Of a stretch of 64,000 bases of DNA, positions 13,670 through 21,341 are shown one piece after another. The notes beneath the pieces were generated by a model. It did not search any database, was not told where the DNA came from, and saw only the letters and a list, made by a program, of their open reading frames with translations. A program made the translations under genes and the position numbers. This DNA comes from Halopiger xanaduensis SH-6 (GTDB lineage Archaea; Halobacteriota; Halobacteria; Halobacteriales; Natrialbaceae), in contig NC_015666.1 in the NCBI RefSeq assembly GCF_000217715.1, forward strand, positions 2,740,270 to 2,804,269. Reading direction: 5' to 3'. The stretch's first letter is position 1. Every line of letters starts with the position of its first letter.

Positions 13670-13866
13670 CGGGACGGACCGGGAAGCGACAGACCGAAAC
13701 CCCCTCGAGCCGAAATTCGGGTGGCGGCCGTGACGAAGAGTTACCCCCTCCGAGCCCCTTGTGACGAGGGATTTTCCCCGAGCCGCCGTTCGAATCCGCT
13801 CAGCGGCCGCGCTGCGTTCGTGCGTTCGTGCAAACTTTGAACCTCGAGTCGCGCGTACCGCCGCGC

Positions 13867-14802
13867 ATGCAGTTCGAACTCGAGCGGATCGGCGTCCACG
13901 AGTCGGTCGAAACGGTCTTTCCGCCGTCGGAACTCGCCGCGTATCTCGATGATCTACCCGCCGAAGTAACAGTTGTTGGCGACGATGCGGCCGAGATCAC
14001 CGCCTGCGACGCCGTCGTCACCTTCGAGCACCGCGACGCCTACCTCGAGGTCGACTGGGTCCACTCGATCCAGGCCGGCGTCGACCGGTTCCCGTTCGAC
14101 GAATTCGAGGCCAGCGGGGTCGTGCTCACCAACAGCACTGGGATCCACGACCGCTGGGTCGGCGAGACGGTCGCGGGCTACCTGCTCTCGTTCGCCCGCC
14201 GGATCCACACCGCCGTCGCGAACCAGCAGGACCGACGCTGGGACCAGCCCGACTGGAACGACGGGTTCACGCTGCCCGGCACGACCGCGTGCGTGCTCGG
14301 CACCGGCACCCTCGGCAGCGGCGTCGCCGAGGTGCTGGGCGCGCTCGGCGTCCGCGTCACCGGCGTCCGCCGCTCCGCGGAGCCCGTCCCCGGCTTCGAT
14401 GAAGTCTACGCGACCGAAGACCTGCTCGAGGGCGTCAGCGACGCCGATTTCGTGATCGTCACGCTGCCGCTGACGGAGCAGACGCGCCACCTCGTCGACG
14501 CCGAGGTCTTCGAGGCCATGCGCGAGGACGCCTACTTCGTCAACGTCGGTCGCGGCCCGGTCGTCGACGAGTCGGCGCTGATCGACGCCCTCGAGTCCGA
14601 TAGTATCGCCGGCGCGGCACTGGACGTCTTCGAGACTGAACCCTTGCCGGAGGAGTCGCCGCTGTGGGACATGGACGAAGTGATCGTCACGCCCCACTGC
14701 GCCGCGTTCACGGAGGACTACTTCCGGGCGGTCGGCGACATCGTCCGGGAGAACGTCGAGCGCCTCGAGTCCGGCGAGCCGTTCCACAATCGGGTGGTGT
14801 GA
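13867..14802 (+). CDS. D-2-hydroxyacid dehydrogenase
   Basis: 311 residues. The NAD-binding Rossmann motif is GTGTLGSGVAEVLGALGV (about residues 151-168). Catalytic surroundings are FVNVGRGPVVDESAL (Arg), ALDVFETEPLPEESPLW (Glu) and VTPHCAAFTEDYF (His). This is the standard D-isomer-specific 2-hydroxyacid dehydrogenase set. Substrate is undetermined: phosphoglycerate-specific regulatory (ACT) domains are absent, so a glyoxylate/hydroxypyruvate or general 2-ketoacid reductase is more likely than SerA. The preferred start, ATG 13867, is internal to a longer frame and matches the usual N-terminal strand. The GNAT gene starts one base after its stop. Confidence 0.92.
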   Translation: MQFELERIGVHESVETVFPPSELAAYLDDLPAEVTVVGDDAAEITACDAVVTFEHRDAYLEVDWVHSIQAGVDRFPFDEFEASGVVLTNSTGIHDRWVGETVAGYLLSFARRIHTAVANQQDRRWDQPDWNDGFTLPGTTACVLGTGTLGSGVAEVLGALGVRVTGVRRSAEPVPGFDEVYATEDLLEGVSDADFVIVTLPLTEQTRHLVDAEVFEAMREDAYFVNVGRGPVVDESALIDALESDSIAGAALDVFETEPLPEESPLWDMDEVIVTPHCAAFTEDYFRAVGDIVRENVERLESGEPFHNRVV

Positions 14803-16999: not shown

Positions 17000-17264
17000 G
17001 TACGCGGGTTCTCTCGCTGTCGTTCGATAGTCGTACCCCCGAACATGTACCGGAAAACGGGTGAGTATCGATCCACGAGCGACAGCGCCACCACGTCACT
17101 TGGCCGGGCACACGACTCGAGTATCGCGAGAGTCGCGCAACTCGGGGAAGGGCAGGCCATCACACCGATAGCGACCGCGAGCGAACGGAGTGAGCGAGCG
17201 GGCCGACGACCGATGTAAACGAGGACGAGAGGACGAGTGAACGGAGGGAGGAGTGCTTTTGATC
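17000..17264. other. Intergenic stretch, no gene seen
   Basis: I see no coding frame here. It contains CGAGCGAACGGAGTGAGCG at about 17176-17194, a short motif that recurs widely in haloarchaeal intergenic DNA as far as I know, plus GA-rich direct repeats (gaggacgagaggacgag). It lies between the DGC gene and the engB 3' structured element. Confidence 0.4.
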
Positions 17265-17340
17265 AACCTTTTACCGAGGGACGGTGCGCTGTGCGGCAGC
17301 TATGCTGCCGTCAGCGCAGCAGACCGCAGCGTAAAAGGTT
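17265..17340. repeat. Nested inverted repeat directly after engB
   Basis: Three nested perfect stems occur in 76 bases. Outer: AACCTTTTAC (17265-17274) with GTAAAAGGTT (17331-17340). Middle: TGCGCTG (17285-17291) with CAGCGCA (17312-17318). Inner: CGGCAGC (17294-17300) with GCTGCCG (17304-17310), around a TAT loop. The element begins two bases after the engB stop codon (17343-17345, minus strand), so it lies in the engB 3' untranslated region. It could be an RNA processing or termination structure, or a mobile palindromic repeat. Pairing is exact by base count; function is unknown. Confidence 0.75.
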
Positions 17341-17342
17341 GG

Positions 17343-17960
17343 TTAGAAGAATTTGAACAGGTCGTCCCGGTTCTGCTCGTGGAGGTGTTCGCGGACGGCC
17401 TCGTTGAGCGGTTCGATCCGGCCTTTCTTGGCGGTGATCGGAGCGATGGTTTCCTGCCACTGCTTCCACGGGGGATAGAGGCCGAGGCGGTCGCAGAGGT
17501 CGTTCAGGCGCTCGTCTTTGTCGTCGACCTTGTCCATCTTGTTGACGGCGACGACGACCGGGATGTCGAGGTCCCGCAGGAAGTGAAACATCTCGACGTC
17601 GTAGGGAACCTCGTCGGGGCCGGAGTGGCGGTCGATGATGTCGATGACGCTCTTGCCGTCGACGACCAGGACGGCGACGAGGATGTTCTCGGCGTAGTCC
17701 TCGAGGTAGTGGACGATGTTCGTCTTGATCTCCTCGCGGTGCTCCTCGTCGACGCCGCTCATGAAGCCGAAGCCGGGCAGGTCGGTGATGACGAAGTCCT
17801 CGGGCGCCCAGTCGTAGTGGTTCGGCTGACGGGTGACGCCGGGCTTGCCGCCGGTGTCGAACGTGTGGCCGGTCAGCTCGCGCATGAGCGTGGACTTGCC
17901 CACGTTCGAGCGACCGACGAGGGCCACCTCGGCCTCGCGATCGGGGCGAGAGTCGAACAT
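17343..17960 (-). CDS. engB: Ribosome biogenesis GTP-binding protein EngB
   Basis: 205 residues, the normal EngB/YihA length. GTPase motifs: G1 [10 protein letters not shown] (residues about 16-25), G2 region [11 protein letters not shown]3 DLPGFG, G4 NKMDK, G5 near TAKKGRI. EngB acts in assembly of the large ribosomal subunit in bacteria; archaeal members are presumed to do the same. ATG at 17960 is close to the first strand. Transcribed alone, with the nested inverted repeat just after its stop. Confidence 0.95.
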
Positions 17961-20930: not shown

Positions 20931-21341
20931 ATGACAAACTGGCGCGCGGTCTTCGTCGGGTTCGTCGTCGCGACCGTCCTCGGAATCCTCGGGTTGGCCC
21001 TGCCGGGCGTCGGCCAGCTCGCCGCGGGACTGATCGGCGGCTTCGTCGCCGGCTACATGGCCGGCGGCGGCATCGGGAGCGGCTTCTGGCACGGATTGCT
21101 CGCCGGCGCGCTCGGCGGGATCATCGGCGGCCTGCTCATCGGGGTCGCGGTCGGCGTCGCCGGCCTCGCGCTCGGCCCCGTCGGCGGCGCGATCTCCGGC
21201 ACCGTCGGCGTGGGCATCTTCGCGTTCGCCGTCGCCGTCTCGCTGGTCATGGCCGTCGAGAGCGCGATCGCCGGCGCCGTCGGCGGCGCGCTCAACTCGG
21301 GCGCCGACACCGGTCGCTCGACAGGCGGACAGCGGTACTAA
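20931..21341 (+). CDS. DUF5518-like glycine-rich membrane protein
   Basis: 136 residues, nearly all hydrophobic and rich in glycine. Segments at about 5-25, 30-55, 55-85 and 90-125 suggest four membrane passes with GG/GxxxG packing (FVAGYMAGGGIGSGFWHGLL). This is the pattern of the archaeal DUF5518 family, of unknown function. A Gly/Ser-rich polar tail ends the protein. ATG 20931 is the first in-frame start after the likely promoter and matches the family start (MTNWRAV). Confidence 0.8.
   Translation: MTNWRAVFVGFVVATVLGILGLALPGVGQLAAGLIGGFVAGYMAGGGIGSGFWHGLLAGALGGIIGGLLIGVAVGVAGLALGPVGGAISGTVGVGIFAFAVAVSLVMAVESAIAGAVGGALNSGADTGRSTGGQRY

Follow-up and report, generated by a model that had tools for sequence, protein, structure and literature searches.

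The window analyzed here (the whole stretch of DNA, 64,000 nucleotides) carries on its minus strand the gene engB, whose product was identified as the GTP-binding protein EngB (NCBIfam NF003255, 306.7 bits against a cut-off of 164), and one base beyond the engB stop codon begins a hairpin built of three nested inverted repeats, hereafter hairpin A. A base-by-base check found all three stems to be perfect: an outer stem of 11 bp (17264-17274 / 17331-17341), a middle stem of 7 bp (17285-17291 / 17312-17318) and an inner stem of 7 bp (17294-17300 / 17304-17310) closed by the loop TAT; with imperfect pairing the arms reach 17256-17274 / 17331-17349 and are 84% complementary. An earlier note on this DNA had described stems of 10, 7 and 7 bp beginning two bases past the engB stop; its nested architecture and both inner stems are as described, the outer stem is 11 bp, and the spacing is one base. 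The fold of positions 17255-17355 (plus strand) has a predicted energy of -58 kcal/mol, whereas shuffled sequences averaged -30.9 (z -7.5) and none of 200 was as stable. A search of the window for nested 10/7/7 stems returned this single structure, seen in two registers of the 11-bp stem, and none appeared in 60 simulated 64-kb windows (first-order Markov), in agreement with the note's view that such nesting rarely arises by chance. The best-matching named relatives of the window belong to genera that we take to lie in the Natrialbaceae.

Table 1. Features of the engB gene end and of the element behind it.
Feature	Coordinates	Strand	Basis or remark
engB	17343..17960	(-)	NCBIfam NF003255 GTP-binding protein EngB; stop codon 17343-17345 adjoins the element
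Whole multi-hairpin gene-end element	17102..17342	(-), engB sense	Own-genome copies; linkers common to most of the 14 own sites and many engB gene ends
Hairpin A (stems 11, 7, 7 bp; holds the T4/A4 tract)	17264..17342	(-)	Stems verified; outer-stem covariation
Linker 1, ATCAAAAGCACTCCTCCCTCC	17243..17263	(-)	Holds another A4 tract, eight bases beyond that of hairpin A
Segment B	17215..17242	(-)	No pairing in the predicted fold of this copy; variable among own-genome and engB copies
Conserved core ATCGGTCGTCGGCCCG	17199..17214	(-)	Common to own-genome and engB copies
Segment C, variable imperfect palindrome	17173..17202	(-)	Comparison of own-genome and engB copies
Linker 3, GGTGTGATGGCCTGCCCTTCCCCG	17143..17166	(-)	GCCTGCCCTTCCCC part conserved among copies
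Hairpin D	17104..17147	(-)	Covariation in 27 aligned copies; element end CCCGGCC at 17102-17108

The 76-base interval that had been presented as the element proved to be its engB-proximal hairpin A alone, the recurring unit extending over about 240 bases (Table 1). When 201 bases taken around the site were compared with the own genome, two further copies were recovered (identity 83% for 178 and 80% for 184 matched bases of the 201), along with many partial matches, and model R1, which scores the hairpin A of the window at 79.1 bits (the window being one of the model's own rows), gave 18 own-genome matches at E ≤ 1, some of them two per site. Four of these were not used as copies: L151 (the other strand of the L144 hairpin), L153 and L155 (sites already counted), and L154 (E 0.096). 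In total, 14 own-genome sites were found, 13 of them directly behind a stop codon on the strand of the gene, and related copies occur in many genomes of the class Halobacteria, which bears out the repeat part of the "palindromic repeat of mobile origin" that the earlier note had considered beside a termination or processing structure and a small structured RNA.

Read in gene sense, the element comprises the stop codon, hairpin A, AAAAGCACTCCTCC, the variable segment B, the core GTCGTCGGCCCG, the palindrome C, the linker GCCTGCCCTTCCCC, hairpin D, and the end CCCGGCC. This plan, with the core written GTCGTCGGCCCGCTCG, is common to the 14 own-genome sites, parts of it being absent or changed at some of them. 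The AAAAGC of linker 1 is invariant in the 27 rows of alignment A1, rows that were themselves chosen by this linker with at most two mismatches. Segment B has no clear palindrome in the window copy and, judged by eye, forms a hairpin in many other copies. The core ATCGGTCGTCGGCCCG is still recognizable in copies of two genomes of other families (G056 and G094), and in a genome of a further family (G147) the plan is the same and the linkers differ. The whole 246-base stretch gives a weaker folding signal than hairpin A alone, both as RNA (z -3.2, with 2 of 200 shuffles as stable) and for the opposite strand as DNA (z -3.8, with 0 of 200).

Some own-genome copies have additional hairpins between hairpin A and the first linker, and in one of them (L012 at about 1590-1818, own genome near C3:1,221,600) the copy has grown to a chain of many different hairpins ahead of the linker. 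A further repeated module, starting CGGAAGACGTTCC, is inserted within linker 1 after AAAAGCA in L010, L013, L097, L201, L204, and L210. In addition, L039, L040, L192, and L198 form a subfamily with its own arm and tip sequence, two of these copies being on plasmids, and are not clearly placed behind a stop codon.

The position of the element relative to genes was analyzed in 99 copies, comprising the 14 own-genome sites, 28 best hits of other genomes, 27 copies of G197 (a genome of another genus), and 10 copies each of G056, G094, and G147 (10 examined of 15, 27, and 17 matches, respectively), with L167 counted once, under G197. In 77 of the 99 copies, the stop codon of an ORF of 60 codons or more on the same strand falls between 14 nt before and 5 nt inside the hairpin start, and in 59 of these 77 the stop lies at -1 to +3 nt. 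By set, the stop-adjoining copies are 12 of 14 in the own genome, 23 of 28 among the best hits of other genomes, 20 of 27 in G197, 9 of 10 in both G056 and G094, and 4 of 10 in G147. The thirteenth own-genome site adjoins the stop of an Lrp-like gene, where the model match fell on an inner hairpin (the gene labels Lrp-like and AbrB-like being our presumptive readings of the sequence). Of the 22 copies that fail this test, some, including the single own-genome exception, are located by eye near the apparent start of a divergent ORF.

Many housekeeping genes are among those that carry the element. Besides engB, the own-genome genes that carry it include those for TFS, the regulator TbsP, a geranylgeranyl-reductase-family (GGR) protein, an HD-domain protein, aIF1A, Pan2, the thermosome, and ribosomal protein L16/L10e, together with an acyl-CoA-dehydrogenase-like protein that scored below the cut-offs of its models; the small protein at site L143 matched no Pfam family. 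It should be noted that TGA is the stop codon before 10 of the 77 stop-adjoining copies and of 31 of the 66 called genes of the window, for which the p-value of 1e-5 is too small owing to homologous sites. In 2 of the 66 called window genes, one being engB, a TTTT begins no more than 12 nt from the stop; the second, near 21339, had no match to model R1. A role at convergent gene pairs was considered and dropped, as convergent neighbors were not enriched among the copies (31 of 65, compared with 26 of 65 for the window; p 0.48). For copies that do not follow an ORF of at least 120 codons, a class that includes copies behind short genes, 24 of 32 have a convergent called gene next to their far end.

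Different genera share many occupied gene ends. At least nine own gene ends (L012, L139, L140, L141, L143, L144, L146, L148, and L149) have an occupied counterpart in G197, at 84-100% protein identity, and an Lrp paralogue (L152) matches one of these G197 genes more weakly. The GGR-family gene end is also occupied in G056, and that of TFS in four genomes of the class set. Behind the engB stop, model R1 found a match in 28 of 80 named haloarchaea at E ≤ 0.5 (19 of them below 1e-5) and none in the other 52, a comparison that is partly circular because seventeen of these loci helped build the model; elsewhere in the 444 kb there was one match, plus five reverse-strand readings of the same hairpins. 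By eye, several haloarchaea outside the Natrialbaceae have behind engB a shorter form, with T4-T7 followed by a hairpin and an A tract, often joined by another A tract some eight bases later, and two such loci (L109 and L110) have a recognizable D hairpin.

Across the class, 141 of 242 genomes have an R1 match at E ≤ 0.01, comprising 57 of 61 in the own family (read from a kinship-ordered listing in which four lack a match) and 84 of 181 elsewhere; at E ≤ 1e-5 the corresponding counts are 55 of 61 and 55 of 181. Up to 18 candidates were scored per genome in this survey, which makes its copy numbers lower bounds, and G197, searched alone, gave 27 matches at E ≤ 0.01. Ten genomes outside the class also have matches, mostly of about 38 bases, reaching E 4e-4 and 32.6 bits; these are presumably chance, and on their account we place no trust in within-class matches whose E exceeds 1e-5. 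Taken together, this is an ancient, multi-copy element that recurs behind the stop codons of a set of genes in the class Halobacteria.

The main rival to a function at gene ends is that of a selfish element of the REP or MITE type that inserts at gene 3' ends and has no role for its host. We regard this as a possible but distinctly less favored explanation. Its multi-copy, palindromic, and intergenic nature is what such an element would have, as are the extra hairpin chains of some copies and the similar DNA found on six plasmid records, three of which yielded a hairpin A copy. The engB locus offers further evidence for it. There, a gene encoding a protein with the C-terminus NRVV converges on engB; the two genes are 231-355 nt apart in twelve species with an R1 match, and only 13 and 14 nt separate them in two Natronorubrum species (L068 and L090), from which the element is absent. 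This difference may be either a precise loss or a gain, and the element is dispensable at engB. In one Natrialba the gap is 85 nt and holds what looks like a degenerate form, and three further loci, with gaps of 396, 549, and 808 nt, do not offer clean comparisons. In the window itself, an ORF at 13828-14802, presumably hydroxyacid-dehydrogenase-like, ends in FHNRVV and lies about 2.5 kb from engB, while a similar-ended gene converges directly on engB in many relatives.

Against recent mobility stands the occupation of the same gene ends in different genera. Furthermore, the Y1 transposase domain (PF01797), which was detected in 5 of 14 control genomes including Haloferax volcanii, had no match in the own genome and three in G197 (two of them neighboring pieces), none beside a listed copy. 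The lack of a Y1 match in the own genome and the conserved sites argue against recent mobility and not against an old mobile origin. A viral origin was also considered and set aside: a 14-base linker pattern retrieved at least 120 stretches from viral contigs, of which 80 were scored with R1 without a convincing match (best 28.5 bits), and the pattern is too short to be informative because this score falls within the presumed-chance range of up to 32.6 bits.

Bacterial REP/BIME sequences, associated with TnpA-REP, are likewise extragenic palindromes present in many copies, and in E. coli 446 of 4,072 REPs lie within 15 nt behind a stop codon (PMC12306157, the main text of which contains no words beginning with 'halo' or 'natri'). 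REP elements are reported to carry a GTAG or CGTC tag at one end (PMC3733652). In contrast, the element described here is larger (about 240 bp) and made of several segments with fixed linkers, has hairpin A at the stop codon in most copies, keeps its sites across genera, and has no match to a TnpA-REP (Y1) transposase in its own genome. Among haloarchaeal repeats, the PATE, SMR, and MITE sequences of Haloquadratum are also transposase-free, and PATEs also have palindromes; however, the ends of PATEs show a relationship to IS605-type transposons, and A-type SMRs are frequently located within other mobile elements (PMC3119063), whereas the copies described here lie at gene ends, many of them of housekeeping genes, and their sites are kept. 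Within the scope of our literature search, which left subscription papers and preprints aside, no description of the element was found, and an earlier one is possible.

We analyzed the conservation of the hairpins in alignment A1, which holds 27 copies of hairpin A (26 distinct) from 17 engB loci of other genomes, 3 plasmid copies, and 7 own-genome sites including the window. This alignment leans to well-conserved copies because, of the 7 own-genome sites outside it, three with extra hairpins were removed on purpose and four were missed by the linker pattern; L066 and L115 were also removed. The 11-bp outer stem of hairpin A is paired in 95.1% of cells, against at most 57% when slid, and has 36 doubly changed cells, neither value being reached by any of 500 shuffles. 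Hairpin D, in 27 copies, is paired in 87.8% of cells, against at most 41.5% when slid, with 54 doubly changed cells and 0 of 500 shuffles as high. Two of the five measures are weak, namely pairs changed on both sides, reached by 29 (A) and 11 (D) of 500 shuffles, and further pair types, reached by 318 (A) and 76 (D) of 500; as many aligned rows are related, none of these shuffle counts is a probability. The hairpin D alignment (A3) left out two copies with a longer D and six with no parsable end, and its end pattern asks for CGG-like endings, so the three outermost D pairs say little. The short form of other families (alignment A2) aligned poorly and was excluded from the counts. The earlier note had named a lack of stem covariation in homologous regions as one of two findings that would count against its proposal; hairpins A and D both covary.

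The consensus arms of the hairpin are CCGAACTTTTGC and GCAAAAnTTCG. Within the outer stem, the T4/A4 tract is U-A in 100 of 104 cells, whereas columns 3, 5, 6, and 11 hold pairs that vary freely. This contrast speaks for selection on the T and A letters in addition to pairing, and it is also the likely reason for the AT-rich outer stem that the earlier note had singled out as unusual. Set beside the archaeal pattern of a T stretch followed by C, four Ts and no more are present in 24 of the 26 distinct rows, and the next base is G or A (C in two rows), followed by C. G-U pairs are rare, at 2 of about 272 paired cells in hairpin A and 7 of about 332 in hairpin D, fewer than expected for selection on folded RNA alone, which suggests that the palindromes are upheld at the DNA level. 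As judged from these alignments, the scarcity of G-U pairs weakens the case for selection on folded RNA.

The hairpin tips behave differently from the arms and linkers. Among 67 parsed copies, fewer than the loci searched, there are 51 distinct tips. By eye these group into a small number of classes, which turn up again behind unrelated genes and in other genomes. The engB copies of sister species have arms and linkers in common and tips that differ, and in Natrinema (L069, L073, and L075) the tips behind this one gene belong to different classes. For two of the classes the loop is found in either orientation, as TTC or as its reverse complement GAA. This pattern would fit gene conversion between dispersed copies, a process treated for Haloferax in PMC8223754, together with hairpin-templated inversion.

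A site that acts as DNA is the second alternative. In bacteria, REPs organized as BIMEs have a role as DNA-level sites, and the element could serve comparably, for instance for a chromosome protein or a topoisomerase. The very few G-U pairs, the palindromes with inverted loops, the linkers conserved in sequence, and, for 77 of 99 copies, an orientation that follows the upstream gene would all suit such a site; however, the tips vary freely, so any recognition would need to read the linkers or the arms, and we consider this explanation unlikely. Less probable still is a regulatory RNA derived from the 3' UTR, whose C-rich linkers (CUCCUCC, CUGCCCUUCCCC) would pair with the ribosome-binding sites of other mRNAs: these linkers are conserved at unrelated sites, the first is unpaired in the fold of the window copy, and the hairpins covary, but G-U pairs are scarce and no Rfam family exceeded its gathering threshold in the window, the sole sub-threshold hit at the element having 15.3 bits (E 3.9).

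The reading that we favor, and to which we give an even chance, is that the element is a two-way transcription terminator and transcript 3'-end signal whose palindromes are upheld and exchanged at the DNA level. The position behind stop codons and the T tracts suggest termination and 3'-end formation by comparison with Haloferax volcanii. In that species, transcription was terminated to 95% by a T5C insert and to 59% by one hairpin, and 503 of 1,543 termination sites have hairpins upstream (PMC7237163); both there and here a T tract lies close behind the gene and hairpins are found near some 3' ends, whereas the putative terminator described here is a defined multi-hairpin unit that recurs and carries T tracts in either direction. 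In gene sense, RNA polymerase would encounter T4 no more than a dozen or so bases from the stop codon and then a strong hairpin; from the opposite side it would meet two T4 tracts eight bases apart and then the same hairpin A. The palindromes would be kept perfect and exchanged between copies through gene conversion and hairpin-templated repair, so that tips and loops may turn over while arms, linkers, and sites stay. Several observations speak against a terminator: the T4 is shorter than the proven T5C; the element is missing in many relatives; 22 of the 99 copies do not adjoin a stop codon; and convergent genes are not enriched. In addition, termination leaves the role of the conserved linkers unexplained.

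More tentatively, the element may form a class-wide gene-end system, in which a multi-hairpin unit at fixed sites would mark and end the transcripts of a conserved group of core genes, its linkers would be read by a putative factor, and its tips would be constantly replaced and inverted by palindrome exchange at the DNA level, with place and plan lasting across genera and families. Archaeal transcript ends have mainly been described in terms of T stretches and the cleavage factor aCPSF1 (PMC7237163, PMC8716108). If core genes throughout an archaeal class end in a recurring structured element, halophiles amenable to genetics would offer a defined and testable 3'-end signal, and its conserved sites with wholesale exchange of tips are a natural experiment on the upkeep of perfect palindromes.
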